This document shows, piece by piece, positions 18,345-30,747 of a stretch of DNA of 64,000 nt. Location of the stretch: NCBI GenBank assembly GCA_029268515.1, contig JAQWNP010000006.1, forward strand, positions 186,001 to 250,000, given 5' to 3'. The translations under genes and the position numbers were made by a program. The stretch is from Phycisphaerales bacterium. GTDB lineage: Bacteria > Planctomycetota > Phycisphaerae > Phycisphaerales > SM1A02. The notes under the pieces are model-generated. The model did no database searches. It was not told where the DNA came from and worked only from the letters and a program-made list of their open reading frames with translations. Within the stretch, counting starts at the first letter, position 1; each line of letters begins with the position of its first letter.

Positions 18345-20489
18345 CTACATCACCTTGATAACGACAAGCGTGACATCATCTTCTTGATTATGTTGACCTC
18401 GGAATTCATCGAGCTGAGTTGTGATGGCGATCGCAATTTGATCTGCCGAAGATTCAACTTGTGATCGAATGACGTCTCGCAGTCGATCTTTGCCAAACAT
18501 TTCACCATCGCTATTGCGAGATTCCCAGATGCCATCTGTACCAATAACAATAATCTGACCAGGCTTCCAACCAGACTCCGATGCTTCAGTAAATACCCAT
18601 TCACCATCAATACCCAAAGGGATGTCACTGCCACCGAGCTCATCAAAGCTATCTGTTTCAGGAGAGAAGCGTAGCATTGGATCATGTCCCGCACTCACCC
18701 ATCTCATTTCGCCAAGTTGTTTATTAATGACAAGAAAGAACAGTGTCATAAATCGACCACTTTGAGTGTCCTGGGCAAGCCGTGTATTAACCTGTCCCAT
18801 TACTTCGGCAAGACTGCCGGGCGCCGCGAGTCGTACACGCAGAGCGCCGCGAGCCGTTGCCATCAGTAAAGCGGCAGCAATACCATGGCCAGTCACATCA
18901 CCCACAGCAATGCCCAATATTCCCTCTCCAAGTTCCTTCAATTCAAGAAAATCGTAGTAGTCACCACCCGTCTCATCGCAGTACACACTCCGACCCGCAA
19001 TATCGAATCCACTCAGTTGCGGAGGCTCGCTAGGCAAGAGGTTCTGTTGAACCTCCATCGCAACCCCAAGCGCTTCACGAATACGCATGCGATCTCGCAA
19101 CTTTGGCACCATATCGTTAAAGACTGCTGCAAGTTCACCGACTTCGTCCGAAGTAGCAACCGATGCCCGTGCCTCAAGATCACCGACAGCAATCTTTTTT
19201 GCCACCGACACAAGATTGCTAATGGGCCGCGTGACTGATCGTGCGCACAAAAATGCCAGAACAACGACAATGATCATCAGAAAAACAAGAAACACAATAT
19301 TGCGCCAAGCGTGCCTGCTTACCTCATCAACGAGCCAACTCTGGATTTCATTCGCTTTCGACGCGACTATATTTGCTGGCACCTCAAGCAATAAGAAGGG
19401 GCCGCTATCAGTCATTGGCGCATACGCCCACAACAATTCCTCGCCACCAATATCTATCTTGCCTTTGCCAGACTGGCTGAGGCGCATCTGCCTAATCACT
19501 TCTGGAATGCCTGGTGATTGATCAGGATTGATATATGTCGGCTTCTGGATTTTTATCTCATCATTTATGGATTCAAGAACGGCTGACTTTTTTGCCACGA
19601 TTTCAAGCCGATCACCTATCACTTTATCTTTCACTGGATTGACAACCATGATTGATGCATATTCTTGCCATTCCGGAGGGATAGACAAACTCGCAAAAAA
19701 CTCTGTCAGAACGACATCACATGCAACAACACCGAGAATTGTGCCGTCCGTGAGCTTGATTGGATAGGTGAAACTTGACACCAACTTTCCGTTTGATGCA
19801 TCAATGTATGGATACGTGCGAGAAACACCTTTAGACTTTTTCCCCAGTTGGTACCAAGGGCGTTCTACGGGGTTGTAATCCTTGGGTAGATCAATATGCC
19901 CGGGAAAGTTCATGAACAGTCCATTTTCAAGCGACAAGATGTATCGATGCGCTAAATTGACATTGGCAGCCGTAGCAATACGAAGTGTCCAAAATGCATT
20001 TTTAAGGCGGCTGACTTCTAGATCAACTTCAGAACGAGCCAGGCCCAGTGGCACGTAAAAGACTGGCGCATCGGTGATCACCACTTGATTTGTTTTTTCA
20101 CCTGATTCACTGAGTTCGGAGTAACGTGGATCAGCGGCCATATCTTCAGGAACGACAACTCCATTACGAACATCGTCAGCATAGTATGAAGGCAGATCGC
20201 TATCTGACTCAACAGTGGAATCACTTTTATCCCATTCTTGTGACACTGCTTCTGACCAAGTCATCAGCGTCATATCAATCATTCCGATGTCAAGATGAAC
20301 CTCCTGAGCTAATGATGTTGCAAGTTCGGAAAGGTGCTGTTCTGCCGAAGTCGTGAGCTCCTTACGCAACTCCTTGGCAATACCCTGCCCACTTCGGCGC
20401 AGATCAAACAGTGTGTACCACATTGCAATGATAAGTGGCACCAAGGTAAGAACCACAAGAAGTGCTAGTAGTTTCCATCGGAGCGACAT
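18345..20489 (-). CDS. Membrane sensor phosphatase: Cache-HAMP-SpoIIE (PP2C-like)
   Basis: A 714-residue protein. An N-terminal membrane helix (LLALLVVLTLVPLIIAMWY) leads to a periplasmic region of about 340 residues with Cache/PAS-like text (RPWYQLGKKSKG, TYPYIDASNGKLVSSFTYPI). A second helix (IVFLVFLMIIVVVLAFLC) precedes a HAMP domain (RPISNLVSVAKKIAVGDLEARASV). The C-terminal SpoIIE/RsbU domain has GRSVYCDETGGDYYDFLEL, GDVTGHGIAAALLMA, SAGHDPMLRF and IGTDGIWESRNSDG, with metal-binding Asp residues intact. It should dephosphorylate Ser/Thr on STAS anti-sigma antagonists in response to an external ligand. A paralogue lies 74 bp upstream. Confidence 0.93.
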   Translation of the reverse strand: MSLRWKLLALLVVLTLVPLIIAMWYTLFDLRRSGQGIAKELRKELTTSAEQHLSELATSLAQEVHLDIGMIDMTLMTWSEAVSQEWDKSDSTVESDSDLPSYYADDVRNGVVVPEDMAADPRYSELSESGEKTNQVVITDAPVFYVPLGLARSEVDLEVSRLKNAFWTLRIATAANVNLAHRYILSLENGLFMNFPGHIDLPKDYNPVERPWYQLGKKSKGVSRTYPYIDASNGKLVSSFTYPIKLTDGTILGVVACDVVLTEFFASLSIPPEWQEYASIMVVNPVKDKVIGDRLEIVAKKSAVLESINDEIKIQKPTYINPDQSPGIPEVIRQMRLSQSGKGKIDIGGEELLWAYAPMTDSGPFLLLEVPANIVASKANEIQSWLVDEVSRHAWRNIVFLVFLMIIVVVLAFLCARSVTRPISNLVSVAKKIAVGDLEARASVATSDEVGELAAVFNDMVPKLRDRMRIREALGVAMEVQQNLLPSEPPQLSGFDIAGRSVYCDETGGDYYDFLELKELGEGILGIAVGDVTGHGIAAALLMATARGALRVRLAAPGSLAEVMGQVNTRLAQDTQSGRFMTLFFLVINKQLGEMRWVSAGHDPMLRFSPETDSFDELGGSDIPLGIDGEWVFTEASESGWKPGQIIVIGTDGIWESRNSDGEMFGKDRLRDVIRSQVESSADQIAIAITTQLDEFRGQHNQEDDVTLVVIKVM

Positions 20490-20562: not shown

Positions 20563-22641
20563 TTAAAGAACCTTAACAACCACAACTGTCACATCATCTT
20601 TAAGAGATTCCTCTCCGATGAATTCCTGGACTGCCTCATAGATATTCACACGGATTTCCTCAGCGGTTTTGTGTGCATTACTCTTTATGGATTTTTCAAG
20701 ACGTTCTCTACCAAAAACATCGCCATCACTGCCAACGGCTTCCCAAACCCCATCTGTAGCCAGCACAATCACTGTACCAGGCTCAGGAAGAGCACGTTTA
20801 TGCGTTGTAAACGTAGCAGTTCCATCAATACCAATTGGAATGTCACCACCGTCTAGAGTGCCCATCTGATCGCTGACAGGATCGTATATACATGGCGAGT
20901 CATGCCCTGCAGACACCCACTTTATTTCCTTCTTCACTTGATCTATTTTGAGCGCATAAAGAGTCATAAACTGCCCAGCGACTTCGTTGGCCGCCAGGTA
21001 GCGATTCGTATCTTCAAAAATTTTCTCCATTGATCGATCAAGTCTAAATTGAAGATGTAATGCTGCACGAATTGAGGTCACAATAAGAGCTGCAGAAACA
21101 CCATGACCTGTTACATCACCAATGATGACGACACAGCCTCCACCGACAATATTGTCCCCCGTGAGGAAGTCATAGTAATCTCCACCTGTTTCATCACAAT
21201 AAACACTGGTGCCAGCAAGATCTAACCCAGGAACACTGGGCGGCTTTTCTGGCAAGAGGCGAGCTTGCACTTCATGGGCCAACTCTAAAGATTGCTTCAT
21301 ACGCAACTGGTCGCGTAAGCGAGGTACCATGTCATTAAATGCTGCTGCCAATGAACTGAGTTCACCACTACATCTCACATCGGCTCGTGCATCAAAATCA
21401 CCACCAGCAACCTTGTCAGCAGCCCGTGAAAGCGCAAGTATTGGACGACTTATGGTACGTGATCCGACAACTGCGGCAATAACAAGTGCGATGAGCAATA
21501 TCACAACAATGACACCCCCGACCAGCAACTGCTCGCTCATTTCACTCTCAATCATCGCAGCCACTTCTTGACCTTCTTTGAAAACCGTTGACTCTGGTAC
21601 CACGATAAACAAATAGGTTCCAAAACTATCGAGCGAAGTATAGGACCAGAAACTCAGCACGCCGGCGATCGGGACCTTTGCAACACCAGAGGAACTTTCA
21701 GCGAGGTGCTTAAAGACGCCTGCCCAAGGCCCCATCTCATTTGTCTCCTCGATAATCTCATTTAATGGAGTTGCCCAGCTGGCGGCGCCCTTTTTTTGCT
21801 GAGCAAGCACCTTCAGTTTTTGTAATCCATCGGGATCCATTTGATGGCGTACTAGTGCAATTGTTGCGTCCTCTTTTAAGTGACCAGGTAACCGAACTTC
21901 GCCGAGCAACTCTGTTAAGCCCAGCTCAATACCAACCACACCATTAGAAGTCACGTTCGTAGAAGGAAGCTTCTGAGAAAAACTCGCGACAACTTCGGAT
22001 GAAGCTGCGTCGACATAAGTTCCAACCTCAACCGCCCTATTGGCACTACGACCTTCGATGTACCAAGGCCGTGTAAAGAAATCATAGTTGGCTGGCATAT
22101 CGCCTCTGTCTGGATAGTAGAACATGATTCCATCCGACAAACCCACATTGAAGGTGTAAACAAAATTGCCAACTTTTTCCGTCAACTCTTGAAGTGGATG
22201 AACAAGAGATGCTAGAGATTGAATCTGTGACTGCATTGAGTCACTATCAACACCCTTGCCTAAATAAATAGCACCCTTCAACAACTCTTCATCTTTGCTC
22301 AAATCTGGCGTAACAGAAGATGGGTCACTTGCTTTGTAAATAACAACATCATTGAGTGAAGAAATATCACCATTATTATTACTAAGTGATCGGACAACTC
22401 CAACACGAAGAATTTCTAAGATAAGTCGTGCCCGATCATATCGATCATGTACAACTTCAGACAGAAATCTCGAAGACTCTGATAGCTGCATACTGGTATC
22501 TTCGATCAACCGCTGCCGCACTTTCGCTGCAACATTCGCGCCCACATCTTTAATAGACAGACGCGCTCCCAACGTCAGTACCACGATGGGCACAACAGAT
22601 AAGCAGAGCAGTATGATCAGTATTTTCCAGGCAATCCGCAT
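20563..22641 (-). CDS. Second Cache-HAMP-SpoIIE phosphatase, tandem paralogue
   Basis: A protein of about 692 residues with the same plan as its neighbour: membrane helix (ILIILLCLSVVPIVVLTLG), Cache-like periplasmic part (FFTRPWYIEGRSANRAVEVG, TYVDAASSEVVASFSQ), second helix (LLVGGVIVVILLIALVIAAVVG), HAMP, then SpoIIE (GTSVYCDETGGDYYDFL, GDVTGHGVSAALIVT, SAGHDSPCIY, LATDGVWEAVGSDG). The periplasmic parts have diverged far more than the catalytic parts, suggesting the copies sense different signals while sharing targets. The ATG at 22641 is chosen over a TTG at 22653; GGAA lies upstream. Confidence 0.92.
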   Translation of the reverse strand: MRIAWKILIILLCLSVVPIVVLTLGARLSIKDVGANVAAKVRQRLIEDTSMQLSESSRFLSEVVHDRYDRARLILEILRVGVVRSLSNNNGDISSLNDVVIYKASDPSSVTPDLSKDEELLKGAIYLGKGVDSDSMQSQIQSLASLVHPLQELTEKVGNFVYTFNVGLSDGIMFYYPDRGDMPANYDFFTRPWYIEGRSANRAVEVGTYVDAASSEVVASFSQKLPSTNVTSNGVVGIELGLTELLGEVRLPGHLKEDATIALVRHQMDPDGLQKLKVLAQQKKGAASWATPLNEIIEETNEMGPWAGVFKHLAESSSGVAKVPIAGVLSFWSYTSLDSFGTYLFIVVPESTVFKEGQEVAAMIESEMSEQLLVGGVIVVILLIALVIAAVVGSRTISRPILALSRAADKVAGGDFDARADVRCSGELSSLAAAFNDMVPRLRDQLRMKQSLELAHEVQARLLPEKPPSVPGLDLAGTSVYCDETGGDYYDFLTGDNIVGGGCVVIIGDVTGHGVSAALIVTSIRAALHLQFRLDRSMEKIFEDTNRYLAANEVAGQFMTLYALKIDQVKKEIKWVSAGHDSPCIYDPVSDQMGTLDGGDIPIGIDGTATFTTHKRALPEPGTVIVLATDGVWEAVGSDGDVFGRERLEKSIKSNAHKTAEEIRVNIYEAVQEFIGEESLKDDVTVVVVKVL

Positions 22642-22728
22642 CAGGTATTCCAACTCACTATGAGGTTGTCAGACATCCACAGGTTGGAAGTAATCATACC
22701 GCTCAGCAGCCAGATTCATGGCGGTATC

Positions 22729-24403: not shown

Positions 24404-25153
24404 TCAGTCTACATCGGCGCTCATCTCATCTGGGAACTCAGCGTTGGAGTAAACCTTCTGAACGTCGTCGTGATCTTCGAAAGCATCAATCAACTTGATG
24501 ATACGCTCAGCGGTGGACTTATCGCACGAGACTGTAGTTGTGGGAATCATTGTCACAGAAGCAGACTCAAATACCAGGCTTGCCGCCTCAAGTGCCTCTT
24601 TCACTGATAAGAATGACGCTGGCTCGCAAGTCACTTCCCAAATCCCCTCGGTCAATTCCACATCATCGGCACCAGCTTCAAGTGCCAATTCCATAAGCAC
24701 CTCTTCTTCGGTGCTTGATTCATCGATTAGTATTTGGCCCTTTGTTTCAAAACCAAAGGAAACTGCACCCGGCTTAGCCAAGTTTCCGCCATTGCGTTCG
24801 AACAGCTTTCGCAGCTCCGGCGCAGTTCGATTCACATTGTCCGTGAGGCAATCAACAATCACAGCGACACCGGAGGCCCCATAGCCTTCATAACGAACTT
24901 CCTCGTATGACTCACCTTCACCTGCAACCCCAGCACCCTTTTTGATTGCCTTTTCAATAGTATCCTTAGGCATATTCGCAGCCTTCGCTTCATCAATGGC
25001 ATAGCGGAGCGTCAGATTCATAGTGACATCACCGCCACCAGACTTTGCCGCCACAATGATCGCCCTCGAGCACTTTGACCATGCCTTCCCACGAACAGCG
25101 TCCTGCCTCGCTTTGCGATGCTTGATATTCGCCCATTTACTGTGGCCAGCCAT
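24404..25153 (-). CDS. yebC: YebC/PmpR-family protein
   Basis: A 249-residue protein with the family start MAGHSKWANIKHRKARQDAVRGKAWSK, then GGGDVTMNLTLRYAIDEAKAANMPKDTIEKAIKKG, YEGYGASGVAVIVDCLTDNVNRT and the C-terminal LIDAFEDHDDVQKVYSNAEF. Members of this group act as DNA-binding regulators or relieve ribosome stalling at proline runs; both are established for relatives and which holds here is open. GGAG lies 8 nt before the ATG at 25153. It is 53 bp from the lysine-tailed gene upstream. Confidence 0.95.
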   Translation of the reverse strand: MAGHSKWANIKHRKARQDAVRGKAWSKCSRAIIVAAKSGGGDVTMNLTLRYAIDEAKAANMPKDTIEKAIKKGAGVAGEGESYEEVRYEGYGASGVAVIVDCLTDNVNRTAPELRKLFERNGGNLAKPGAVSFGFETKGQILIDESSTEEEVLMELALEAGADDVELTEGIWEVTCEPASFLSVKEALEAASLVFESASVTMIPTTTVSCDKSTAERIIKLIDAFEDHDDVQKVYSNAEFPDEMSADVD

Positions 25154-25206
25154 CGGCAATTCTCCAAGTGCAGCCTGTCATTCCAAATCAATCAGCCCAT
25201 TGAGCA

Positions 25207-26025
25207 CTAGGCCGTCTTACGAGTCCCTGTCTTCTTGCGCCCAGAGGATACTGTTGAAGTCTTCTTAGTCGCGGCTTTCTTACTTACTGCCTTCTTACCA
25301 ACTGTTTTCTTGCTGACTGTTTTCTTACTTGCTGTTTTCTTCGCTGTTGTTTTTTTGCTTGTGGTAGTGCTCACTGGTTTCTTCCGCGTCACACGACGAG
25401 CTGCATTGCGTCGCTGTCGCTGCGCCTCGTTGTCGCTCCATCGCTGCAATTGCCCAGCAACTTCTAAATCTTGCTCAACTTTAATCTGCCGCGTTATCCA
25501 ATTCGTGATTTCCACCGGTTTTGCAGATGCATCTACCGCACTCTCTTCGACGAGTAATTCACGCAGCTGTTCATCAACCGGTATACCCCGGCCCTCATAG
25601 TGAAGTAACTGAATTCTTGAAGAGACGAATGAGACCATTCCCTCAAGTGTGTCTAAATAGATCTTGGTATCTTTCTTACCGAGACTCGATAATGATCCAA
25701 GCGTGACCTCATGCTCCCGCACATAAATGTCTCGCAACATCGCGCGAAGTCGACGAGCCCGCTCATCGGCCTTCGGATAATCTTCGCCAATAATGTCGAT
25801 CACATCATGCGCCAGCAAGACCCTGAGTTCGTTGTAGTCCACAACCGATTTCACGAGCTTATCGAATGCCGTGGTAGCGTCGCTAACCGTCGCCTCCCAA
25901 AGAAGGCTGGAGTAGATTAGGGTGGAAACCGGATCTCCATCAGAAGCTGGCGTTAGATCCTGTCCCTTTTCAAGCTTTTTTAGTAGCGCTCGGAATTTCT
26001 GGGCGCACGCTGCCGTGTTCTTCAC
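25207..26025 (-). CDS. HhH-glycosylase-like protein with lysine-rich histone H1-type tail
   Basis: A 272-residue protein. Residues about 1-190 look alpha-helical and follow, weakly, the order of the endonuclease III/HhH-GPD fold (DPVSTLIYSSLLWEATVSDA, GSLSSLGKKDTKIYLDTLEG, YEGRGIPVDEQLRELL). The Lys and Asp used for catalysis in that fold cannot be found. Residues about 205-272 are a basic tail of KKT/SKK repeats (TAKKTASKKTVSKKTVGKK and so on), like histone H1 or Hc1-type tails. The ATG overlaps the rbfA stop by 4 bp, so it is coupled to the nusA-infB-rbfA operon. DNA or RNA binding is likely; enzymatic activity is not expected. Confidence 0.6.
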   Translation of the reverse strand: MKNTAACAQKFRALLKKLEKGQDLTPASDGDPVSTLIYSSLLWEATVSDATTAFDKLVKSVVDYNELRVLLAHDVIDIIGEDYPKADERARRLRAMLRDIYVREHEVTLGSLSSLGKKDTKIYLDTLEGMVSFVSSRIQLLHYEGRGIPVDEQLRELLVEESAVDASAKPVEITNWITRQIKVEQDLEVAGQLQRWSDNEAQRQRRNAARRVTRKKPVSTTTSKKTTAKKTASKKTVSKKTVGKKAVSKKAATKKTSTVSSGRKKTGTRKTA

Positions 26026-26414
26026 GGGTTTGACTCCTCAGTCTGATTCGTATTCTCACCATCACCACGATTCATCTCGTCATTAGCTCTTGCAATAGCG
26101 GACAGAACTTCTGCCTGTTTTTTTAGTGACTTGTCGATCTTGAAATGCAACTTTGGAATGCGCCGCATTCGAACAAGATTACCGACTTCACTGCGAATAT
26201 GCTCCCTCGCATGCTGGATGCCATGCAGTGCTAATTCCACATGTTCCTCTGGGAGCACTGAAACAAAGACCGTTGCATTGGAGCCATCTGGAGCAATCTC
26301 AACCCGTGTGACAGATAGAATTCCGCGAATTCTTGGGTCATTGAGTCCCCGACTAAAAACGGTCTGGACTGCTTTTCGAATCTCCGAAGAGGCTCTGTTC
26401 TTGTGCAAACTCAT
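26022..26414 (-). CDS. rbfA: Ribosome-binding factor A
   Basis: RbfA binds immature 30S subunits and aids 16S 5' end maturation. The 130-residue product starts MSLHKNRASSEIRKAVQTVFSRGLNDPRIRGILSVTRVEI and continues DGSNATVFVSVLPEE and VRMRRIPKLHFKIDKSL, all diagnostic. A polar tail (RGDGENTNQTEE) follows. The ATG at 26414 lies 10 bp after the infB stop; the longer open frame runs inside infB and is rejected. The stop overlaps the next gene. Confidence 0.93.
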   Translation of the reverse strand: MSLHKNRASSEIRKAVQTVFSRGLNDPRIRGILSVTRVEIAPDGSNATVFVSVLPEEHVELALHGIQHAREHIRSEVGNLVRMRRIPKLHFKIDKSLKKQAEVLSAIARANDEMNRGDGENTNQTEESNP

Positions 26415-26424
26415 CCCGAAACAC

Positions 26425-29259
26425 TCATAGGGTCTGACGGACCTCTTGCGTTCGATAACACTCAAGTATGTCACCGACCTTAATGTCGTCATAGCCGTCA
26501 ATCAGCATGCCACATTCTTGACCCGACTGAACCTCTTTCGCATCGTCCTTGAACCTCTTGAGTTGCTCCAGGCGCCGGTCTTTCTCAACAACGATGTCAT
26601 CTCTTGTCACACGAATCTGAGCGCTCCGCTCAATTACACCATCTGTAACATAGCATCCTGCAACCATACCGATCTTCGATATTCGGAATACCTCTCGAAC
26701 CTCAGCGTGGCCCAATACCTCAAGCTTAAGTTCGGGATCAAGTAAGCCTTCTGCTGCCCGCGTCACATCATCAGTAATGTCGTAGATGACATCATAGAAG
26801 CGGATATCGACGCCGCGTTCTTCTGCCTGTCGGCGGACCTTTCCAGAAGCGGTCACATTAAATCCAATAATGATCGCCCGTGCTGCTTCAGCAAGCACAA
26901 TATCTGATTCATTAATGCCACCAACAGCCGCATGCTTAACCGCCACGGTGACCTTTTCACTGGAAATTTTTCCAAGCGTAGCCTTGAGTGTCTCAACAGA
27001 CCCCTGCACATCTCCCTTGACGATTAATGGCAGCTCTTTTTGTTCAGCAATTGCCAACTTCTCAAAGATGTTATCAAGCGTCACTCGGTCTTTAACCAAC
27101 GAGGACTCTCGTTCTTCATGAACGCGTTCTGAAGCAGCCCCTTCTGCTTCGCGAAGGCTACTGACAACATAGAACGTGTCGCCGGCATCTGGTACTTCAT
27201 TGATCCCGGAGAAGGCAACTGGTGTCGATGGGCCTGCATCTGAATTACGCTCACCACGATCATCTACAATGTCACGAACACGTCCATAGGCACGACCGAC
27301 AACGATAAAGTCGCCTTTCTTAAGAAGGCCTTGCTGAACGAGCACACGCGCCACGGGGCCACGCCCCTCAATCACCTGCGACTCAATCACCGAACCTTGT
27401 GCCGGCCCCTTAAAGTCTGCCTTGAGTTCCAGCAACTGCGCCTGGTAGTCAAGCGTTTCCAGTAATTCTGTAATACCCTCGCCGGATGTTGCTGTTGTTC
27501 GAACTATTTCGGTTTCACCACCCCACTCAACAGGATTCAGTTTTTGCTCTGCTAACTGCCCGAGTATTCGTTGGATGTTCGAATCTGTTGCCTCTGGTTT
27601 GTCCATTTTATTCAGCGCAACAACAATTGGAACACCTGCAGCTTGTGCATGATGTATTGATTCAATCGTCTGCGGCATCACGCCGTCATCAGCAGCCACA
27701 ACTAAAACCACCAAGTCTGTCACCTTGGCACCACGGGCTCGCATTTCTGTAAAAGCCTCGTGTCCAGGCGTATCAATGAACGTAATGAGATGTTCATCAT
27801 CACCCACTTGTACAGGCACTCTAAAAGCACTCGTAGCTTGCGTGATACCACCAGCCTCACCATCAGCAACATTGGCGTTGCGAATTTTGTCTAGTAGTGA
27901 GGTCTTGCCGTGATCTACGTGTCCTAAAATCGTTACCACTGGAGAGCGTGACTGCTCATCGTGCATCGTACGATCAAGGAACTTCTGCTCAATTTGTGCT
28001 TCTGCAGACTTCCGTTCGAGCACTTCAAGCTCTACATCAAAGTGAAGCATTACCTCTATTGCTTTGGGGCCATCGATCACATCATTGATCGTGGTTGGAC
28101 TACCCTCGATAAACAACTGTTTAAGAATCATGGAAGCCTTGATACCAGTAACAAAAGAAAGTTCCTTGATGGTCACTGGTTCGGTGACTGTAATTGGTCC
28201 TTCAGCCTCACCTGCTGATTGCGCACGCTGGCCACCACCTGCACTACGCTTGAGATTATCTCTTCGAGCTGCACGGAAGTAGCCGCCAGCACGATTCAAT
28301 CGACGTTCTCGCTCAAGAAGATCCTGCTCACGCCAGTTGAAACTTCGTGTATCGGCAGCAGCTCCAAACCGACCCGATCTACCCTCTCTGTTCGTCGGGG
28401 TCGTCGTCCGTCGTTTATTACGACGTGAACTACCAGCCTGCCCGCCAGGACCGCCAGGACCTCCGGGGCCTCCGGGACCGCCAGGGTCACCCATTGGTGG
28501 TTGGTTCGGTGGCATCTGATTGGGTGGGCCTGCGCGATGACCACCACGTGGTCCATCTCGACGAGGTCCATCATGGCCGGTACGCGGTCTTGGAGCTGAC
28601 ACTGGGTCCGGCTTCTCTACTCGAATCACCTTTGGCCCAGAGAGCTTCATCTTGCTGGGGCTCTCTAACTTGCGCCCCACAGGCGAAATCACATCAGGGC
28701 GATGTGGCACATTCATAACGGCCTTTGGTCGACCATCATCAGTATCACCTTCTGGTTCGTCTTCTGGAAGCTCCGCAGCGGGCGCCACTGGCATTGCGGC
28801 CGGCTGCTCATTAGGCGGGTCAGAAGCCTCGTCGGCAACGGGTTCCACAGCAGCAGGCGCCTCTTGAATAACAGGTTGTGCTTCTGGCTGTGCAGTGCTC
28901 GGCTCTTCAAAAGGAACTGGCTTCTGAATCACTTTGGCCTCAACGGGCTTCGCAGGCACTACCTTTTTGACTTCTGGATCTATCGTTTCGGTAACGACTT
29001 CTGCTTCAACGGGTTTCTTCCTCGCCTTTTTCTTTGCGCGAGCCCGGACCTTATCGATATCAACAGGCGCAGCCGTTTCTGTAGCTGTTGAAGCTTCTAC
29101 ACCAGCAGTGGTACTAAACCACTCTTGGATCGTAGCTGCCAAGCCAGCAGACACTGTTGACATGTGATTACTAATGCCAGGTATGGCCTCAGCCTCACAC
29201 TTACCAATGATGTCCTTAGACGTCACGTCCAAAGACTTGGCTAACTGATGAACCCGCAT
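26425..29259 (-). CDS. infB: Translation initiation factor IF-2
   Basis: A 944-residue GTPase that delivers initiator tRNA. It opens with the IF2 N-terminal domain ([22 protein letters not shown]), then a long Pro/Glu/Lys/Gly linker including a GGP repeat run. The G domain has [12 protein letters not shown], the DTPGHEAF switch, NKMD and the later IF2 signature domains ([49 protein letters not shown]). The start is the ATG at 29259 with AAGAG about 8 nt before it; a TTG at 29292 is possible. It lies between nusA and rbfA in the classical order. Confidence 0.95.
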
Positions 29260-29304
29260 TGTCGCTGCTCTTTTTGCCACACTGGGCTCCAATTTGCTTA
29301 CCGA

Positions 29305-30747
29305 TCAGACCTTTGTCTCTGAAGAATCATCTACATCTTCTTTAATATCTGAGGAATCAACTGCATCAGTAGCCTCTATTGCTGGGCCTTCGCCAAGCAC
29401 CGATGCCGCCACTCTGTCACTGGCATCATCATCACCATCACCAAGAATTGATGCGGCGGCAGCTTCTGCATCGACCATTGACGCCCCATCACCTTGATCA
29501 CCTTCGAGAACTGTGCCAGCAATGGCAAGCTCATCCTGTGCACGCTGTTTCGCTTCTTTCTGCTCACGTGCTTGCTGATCAGCAACTTCCCTAGATCGTT
29601 CTGCGCAGACCTGTATGACACGACCTGCAAGCTCTTTATCCATCTCCAGCTCACCAGTCAAGACACCAGCGCCGACCTCCTCAATGTCAAAGACACTGAT
29701 CATGCCAAGGGCACCCATTCGATCCAAGTTTGTATCCGTAATACCTTCAATTGGTCGAATGGTCTCTTCCAAGATTTCCAAGCTCTTCGCAAACTCAGCT
29801 GGGGTGAGAATATCAATGTCCCAACCCGTTAAGCGTGCCGCCAATCGGACATTCTGCCCGCGACGACCAATTGCCAGTGACAATTGATCTTCTCTCACAA
29901 TGATCGTTGCTCGACCCAGTTCAAAGCAGAGGCTGACCTCTTCTACCTCAGCTGGCTTTAATGCATTGGCAATTAGAATTTGGCTCGACTCATTCCATCG
30001 CACAATGTCTATCTTTTCGCCCCCAAGTTCATCGACAATGTTGCGAATACGACTGCCTCGCACGCCAACGCAAGCGCCAACAGCATCAACTTTGGAATCA
30101 ATAGATGACACGGCAATCTTGGTACGGAAACCTGCTTCACGAGCCATTGCTTTAATCTCAATGACATGCTCAGAAACTTCGGGAACCTCTGCTTCAAAAA
30201 GCCGGCGAATAAAATCAGGGTGGCTACGTGACAAAACAATCTTGACCTGATTACCCTGCTCGCGAACATCAAGAATCAAGCAGCGTACGCGATCGCCAGG
30301 ATGGAACTGCTCTCCGGGGATCTGCTCAGAGCGAGGCATGAATCCTTCTGCTCGATCAACTTGTACAACCAAGGCGCCGCCTTCATAACGGTGGGCTGTT
30401 CCAGTGCTAATCTCGCCTTGACGCTTTGAAAATTCATCAAGCAGGCTATTACGCTCATCTTCACGGAATTTCTGAATCATCACCTGCTTAGCAGTCTGAG
30501 CCGGTATCCGCCCCAGTTCTGCTAAAGGAATATATTCGCGCTCCTCACCTTCATGATTACGCCACAACCGCATCTCACCAGTGATTGCGTCAATCTCACA
30601 CCCAAATTCCTCGGCGTCGAGGCTGTTGAAATGCTTACGCGCTGCGCTAATCATTGCTTGTTCTAAGTCGTTAATCAGTAAATCTCGCTCGATGTTTCGA
30701 TCGCGAGCGATTGCGTCAATGATGCGAAGTGTCTCTGCTGGATTCAT
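29305..30747 (-). CDS. nusA: Transcription termination/antitermination protein NusA
   Basis: A 480-residue RNA-binding factor. The N-terminal polymerase-binding domain begins MNPAETLRIIDAIARDRNIE; the S1 domain has GEISTGTAHRYEGGALVVQV; the KH pair has GFRTKIAVSSIDSKVDAVGACVGVRGSRI and LSLAIGRRGQNVRLAARLTGWDIDI. An acidic region (LGDGDDDASDR) of about 80 residues follows, with a helix-hairpin-like LDRMGALGMISVFDIEEVGAG between. It heads the nusA-infB-rbfA operon. rimP, often upstream, is not here. Confidence 0.95.
   Translation of the reverse strand: MNPAETLRIIDAIARDRNIERDLLINDLEQAMISAARKHFNSLDAEEFGCEIDAITGEMRLWRNHEGEEREYIPLAELGRIPAQTAKQVMIQKFREDERNSLLDEFSKRQGEISTGTAHRYEGGALVVQVDRAEGFMPRSEQIPGEQFHPGDRVRCLILDVREQGNQVKIVLSRSHPDFIRRLFEAEVPEVSEHVIEIKAMAREAGFRTKIAVSSIDSKVDAVGACVGVRGSRIRNIVDELGGEKIDIVRWNESSQILIANALKPAEVEEVSLCFELGRATIIVREDQLSLAIGRRGQNVRLAARLTGWDIDILTPAEFAKSLEILEETIRPIEGITDTNLDRMGALGMISVFDIEEVGAGVLTGELEMDKELAGRVIQVCAERSREVADQQAREQKEAKQRAQDELAIAGTVLEGDQGDGASMVDAEAAAASILGDGDDDASDRVAASVLGEGPAIEATDAVDSSDIKEDVDDSSETKV

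Follow-up and report, generated by a model that had tools for sequence, protein, structure and literature searches.

A basic-tailed protein of HhH-GPD ancestry encoded in ribosomal operons of Planctomycetota: a candidate small-subunit assembly or translation factor

In the 64,000-nucleotide stretch of a Phycisphaerales bacterium genome that was analysed here (the window), the gene directly downstream of rbfA encodes a protein in which a domain of the HhH-GPD fold, lacking the catalytic lysine of the bifunctional DNA glycosylases, is joined to a disordered and strongly basic tail. This protein belongs to a family that is single-copy and near-core in most Planctomycetota. We favour, with a probability of roughly 0.55, the explanation that in most genomes of the phylum the members of this family derive from HhH-GPD enzymes, have lost glycosylase/lyase chemistry, are co-expressed with small-subunit assembly genes and act as tail-bearing, RNA-binding factors of 30S assembly or translation. 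The fold itself and the existence of non-enzymatic HhH-GPD homologues such as Mag2 were known beforehand; a phylum-wide family of this fold located in ribosomal operons and possessing its own conserved motif appears to be new. No paper on the family was found among open-licence papers, including by the combination of rbfA, infB and HhH-GPD, and the main text of the P. limnophila essential-gene paper makes no mention of HhH, EndoIII or infB.

The gene occupies positions 25207–26025 of the reverse strand, starts with GTG, ends with TAG and encodes 272 residues, which confirms the reading frame of the preliminary description of this DNA. Its start overlaps the stop codon of rbfA by four nucleotides (26022–26025). 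This overlap had been given as ATGA; it is real and conserved, but the sequence reads GTGA, and ATGA has to be rejected. Upstream on the same strand lie rbfA itself (30S ribosome-binding factor A, 26022–26501; Pfam PF02033, 92 bits), infB (initiation factor IF-2, 26425–29292), whose translation also served as the infB query, and nusA (29305–30747), the last two assigned from their ORF translations. The next gene downstream, also on the reverse strand, is yebC of the TACO1/YebC family (24404–25159; PF01709, 195 bits; PF20772, 109 bits). A comparison of the gene with that of a genus mate yielded a saturated dS, so that the dN/dS ratio carries no information.

Fold and remnants of the active site

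The assignment of the domain to the HhH-GPD fold is well supported because sequence searches, profiles, the predicted structure and the structural comparison concur. The AlphaFold2 model, calculated from the window protein and 63 Phycisphaerae relatives, has a mean pLDDT of 88.5 and predicts an all-helical folded domain (residues 1–214, 25384–26025, reverse strand) with values of about 97 across residues 1–212, a single dip to 83 around residues 21–30, and about 58 through most of the tail. The PDB matches listed by Foldseek for this model were HhH-GPD proteins rather than representatives of an unrelated fold; EndoIII-1 and EndoIII-3 made up the top five (probability 1.00; E 3.6e-7 for Deinococcus EndoIII-1, TM 0.64–0.65 for EndoIII-3), and the S. 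pombe Mag2 structures 4b21–4b23 were also among the matches. At the sequence level, Deinococcus EndoIII-1 was reached at E 0.007 by the single-sequence search, at E 2.2e-12 by the profile of the class Phycisphaerae and at E 2.2e-20 by the phylum-wide profile, and the NCBIfam DR2438 model matched the window protein at E 2e-5. The preliminary description had called the resemblance to HhH-GPD/endonuclease III loose; the similarity is there, but it is significant. It does not amount to membership of NCBIfam MonDNAglycDR2438 (24 bits against a curated cut-off of 400 bits), even though the DR2438 monofunctional glycosylase is the nearest named model for 53 of 65 family members, and the Pfam HhH-GPD model PF00730 gave no match at E 0.01 in the 64 or 56 family members scanned.

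Alignment to 8a5f and 4unf and the column tallies place a degenerate helix-hairpin-helix at residues 127–138 (LEGMVSFVSSRI; 25612–25647, reverse strand). The EndoIII hairpin LPGVGxKTA aligns there with LEGMVSFVSS, so that F133 occupies the position of the catalytic Lys. Among 113 distinct Phycisphaerae sequences this position holds F in 59, Y in 51, H in 2, S in 1 and Lys in none, which makes it aromatic (F/Y) in 110, and Lys is likewise absent from the residues listed at this position for the context-linked relatives outside Phycisphaerae. The second hairpin Gly is replaced by V131, position 131 being mostly P, V, T or S across the class, and the G-h-G pattern is thus lost. Alanine 45 is, in the alignment to 8a5f, the counterpart of the Gln with which EndoIII intercalates into DNA, and a small residue is found here in most members.

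The fate of the catalytic aspartate is different. D151 (codon 25573–25575, reverse strand), within the sequence IPVDEQ, aligns with the VDTH segment that carries the catalytic Asp of HhH-GPD enzymes; it is D in 97 of the 113 class members (86%) and T, N, H, E or S in the other 16. Outside Phycisphaerae it is kept in 20 of the 27 rbfA-linked relatives but in only 2 of the 46 that are linked to rpsP. The earlier statement that neither a catalytic Lys nor a catalytic Asp could be identified therefore holds for the Lys and has to be rejected for the Asp. None of the family members inspected has the Lys, although most of the class retain the Asp. The evidence supports the notion of a retired glycosylase fold as regards the bifunctional chemistry; in the relatives linked to rpsP it does so for the Asp too. 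The C-terminal four-Cys FeS cluster is missing in the window protein. Among the relatives, 24 of the 46 linked to rpsP, 5 of the 17 linked to yebC and 2 of the 27 linked to rbfA still show an EndoIII-type Cys pattern, a distribution that fits an FeS-bearing EndoIII ancestor. The genome of the window separately encodes a canonical EndoIII (K, D and a Cys-rich C-terminus) and a MutY with a NUDIX domain.

The proteins closest to ours in both sequence and fold are thus Deinococcus EndoIII-1 (DR2438) and EndoIII-3, from which the family differs by F/Y in place of the Lys, the lost hairpin Gly, the basic tail, the N/R motif described below and the ribosomal operon, and the window protein in addition by the absence of an FeS cluster. 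The activity of EndoIII-1 is itself unusual, and EndoIII-3 has no detectable EndoIII activity (PMC10523315).

Two loci of relatives deserve mention here. In one genome (G213), an rbfA-linked member (L109) coexists with a separate intact EndoIII-type enzyme possessing both Lys and Asp (L110). In a 617-residue ORF at another locus (L124, 2376–4226, reverse strand), a glycosylase of the HhH-GPD type, with the hairpin GIGKYAA, VDFH and a Cys cluster, is fused to a C-5 cytosine DNA methyltransferase (222 bits to PF00145); this may be a methylase equipped with its own mismatch-repair glycosylase.

The conserved motif and the basic tail

While the catalytic residues drift, a motif of the form D-x-N-[DE]-x-R-[VI] is nearly invariant. 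In the window protein it reads D63-Y-N65-E66-L-R68-V69 (residues 63–69; 25819–25839, reverse strand). By column counts, D63 is conserved in 111, N65 in 109 and R68 in all of 112 Phycisphaerae sequences, and both N65 and R68 are present in 97 of 97 sequences from other classes. The window protein carries the combination of motif and HhH-GPD domain by which the rbfA/rpsP-linked family is recognised. The wide profile also picks up canonical glycosylases (L110 and L124), which were excluded by motif, active site and context. In a tree of 79 sequences, the deep branches of which are weakly supported within the family, six canonical EndoIII/MutY-type sequences are split from the family with a branch support of 99/97.

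The tail (residues 215–272; 25210–25383, reverse strand) is predicted to be disordered, with pLDDT of 56–67, and is rich in Lys and Arg. The last 67 residues (206–272) contain 19 K and 6 R and neither D nor E, a net charge of +25 set against −8 for the acidic folded domain; the Lys-rich tail noticed at the outset is thus real. A degenerate 15/30-bp tandem repeat in the DNA (25262–25361, reverse strand) encodes its K-K-T/A-x units. Of 45 homologues, 64% had a charge of at least +8 in the last 30 residues; among the 389 other ORFs of the same loci, a comparison set that contains some spurious frames, the share was 3%. The net charge was positive in 71 of the 71 tails scored. The charge of the tail is a property of the family and not of the neighbourhood or of chance. 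Its length ranges from 20 to 200 residues, and in some members (L057, L058 and L059) it is short or absent. Chlamydial HC2 and histone H1-like tails share with it a disordered composition rich in Lys, Ala, Thr and Ser; the tail of our family differs in being joined to a folded domain and in varying freely in length. Membership of HC2 was rejected, the match to PF07382 being compositional and, at 27.2 bits, under the 40-bit cut-off.

Distribution and operon context

The family was found in all 61 genomes of the genus, family and order, in 147 of 150 of the class and, when the wider profile was applied with a threshold of E ≤ 1e-12, in 161 of 195 genomes of the phylum, a count in which a few weaker matches may be canonical paralogues. 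The family searches ran within Planctomycetota, and 71 named loci came from an alignment of closer sequences. Among the matches that were read in families f55, f73, f35, f58, f65, f68 and f77, only canonical HhH-GPD proteins occurred; these lineages appear to lack the family and would provide natural contrasts for function.

In Phycisphaerae, rbfA is the immediate upstream neighbour, with the same orientation, in 39 of 39 and in 70 of 70 rbfA-containing loci (two overlapping sets), and the gene starts in the four-nucleotide overlap at the rbfA stop in 68 of 102 distinct loci. In the other classes (n = 97), the gene comes directly after (ffh-)rpsP in 46 members and after (infB-)rbfA in 27, of which L096 and L116 show a larger gap; in 17 it stands before yebC, and the remaining 7 lack all of these neighbours. 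The identities of bS16, SRP54/Ffh and RbfA were confirmed with Pfam in examples. The coupling to rbfA proposed initially is therefore strong across Phycisphaerae and partial across the phylum. In E. coli it is truB that comes after rbfA, and a replacement of truB by the family gene was ruled out, truB being found elsewhere in the genome.

A yebC gene follows downstream in many relatives too. In many Phycisphaerae an ORF of about 1,150–1,260 residues separates it from the family gene (L127, 5667–9140; L137, 5859–9650; L178, 5464–8988). That of L127 proved on a scan to be a TPR-repeat protein, and the window has no such ORF.

Possible functions

A function directed at RNA, in 30S assembly or in translation, is suggested because the family occupies two different 30S operons and the vicinity of yebC, overlaps rbfA, is near-core and single-copy, and combines a basic tail with an acidic domain. 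The helical domain would dock onto pre-30S particles, to 16S rRNA or to a ribosomal protein, via the surface bearing the conserved D-x-N-[DE]-x-R-[VI] motif, the disordered Lys/Arg tail would clamp rRNA non-specifically, and both actions together may aid 30S maturation at the RbfA stage. The 30S role rests on gene neighbourhood, and ribosomal operons are growth-rate genes whose co-expression need not mean co-function. Such a job would not be indispensable because the seven lineages named above show only canonical HhH-GPD proteins, also without RimM where sampled. We would give even odds to a broader proposition: that, at a deep point in the history of Planctomycetota, the fold of a DNA-repair glycosylase was turned over to small-subunit assembly or translation as a dedicated factor whose histone-like tail clamps RNA, RimM being undetectable in this phylum.

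The composition of the tail, its 27-bit score against PF07382, the DNA-binding ancestry of HhH proteins and the pairing of an acidic folded domain with a basic tail would also suit a histone H1-like nucleoid protein, in which the retired fold makes weak duplex contacts, the Lys tail compacts DNA and the linkage to rbfA reflects growth-rate co-expression. We consider this unlikely: the HC2 match is compositional and falls short of the cut-off, the tail varies widely in length and is missing from some members, and neither the hairpin Gly nor the Gln position used for intercalation has been kept. The contexts of the gene (rbfA, bS16/Ffh, YebC) favour RNA and the ribosome over the nucleoid. The retention of D151 in most of the class may leave room for monofunctional catalysis. 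MIG and AlkA are monofunctional glycosylases that use the Asp and have an aromatic residue replacing the Lys, and the class-wide aromatic at position 133 and the nearness of the DR2438 model agree with an enzyme in which Asp151 is the catalytic residue and DNA or rRNA/tRNA the substrate. Such an enzyme seems rather improbable, however, given the lost second hairpin Gly, the replacement of the Asp in some class members and its loss in most of the rpsP-linked relatives while the N/R motif stays, and the canonical EndoIII and MutY already encoded in the genome. The presence of Mag2 among the structural matches brings to mind a non-catalytic damage sensor that would recognise abasic or bent DNA and link such DNA to transcription (through nusA) or translation. 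Mag2, a non-enzymatic DNA glycosylase homologue according to the titles of its PDB entries, does provide a precedent for an HhH-GPD fold that persists outside enzymatic catalysis; it resembles, however, AlkA/Mag1 and not EndoIII, binds abasic DNA, and is not known to have a basic tail or a ribosomal linkage. With no repair genes seen as neighbours at the family loci, the DNA-intercalating and hairpin residues lost and the pairing with ribosomal genes nearly universal, such a sensor is very improbable.

A more specific variant of the ribosomal role would make the family a non-orthologous replacement of RimM that has taken on assembly of the 30S head. RimM was detected in 0 of 59 Planctomycetota genomes with TIGR02273 and in 0 of 148 above the cut-off of PF01782, with 10 of 10 bacterial controls positive, and the position directly after rpsP, where rimM stands in E. 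coli, is held by the family in 46 relatives from several Planctomycetota lineages. The idea is attractive because E. coli genetics link RbfA dosage to the loss of RimM, extra rbfA compensating for the rimM deletion (PMC9032327). Strict replacement is weakened because some lineages, such as f55 and f73, carry neither protein; the fold is moreover unrelated to that of RimM, which contains a PRC-barrel domain (PMC9032327), so that we regard this variant as quite improbable. The question is raised of how the 30S head matures in Planctomycetota without a recognisable RimM. If the favoured role in 30S assembly or translation is true, the family would clearly exemplify the conversion of a base-excision-repair fold into a ribosome factor, and a near-core gene that most Planctomycetota carry, so far unnamed and with a domain that no Pfam model matches, would gain a testable role.

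Elsewhere in the window, two adjacent reverse-strand ORFs of about 700 residues each (18345–20489 and 20563–22653) look alike by eye; they probably represent a tandem duplication of a membrane sensor with an RsbU/SpoIIE-type phosphatase.
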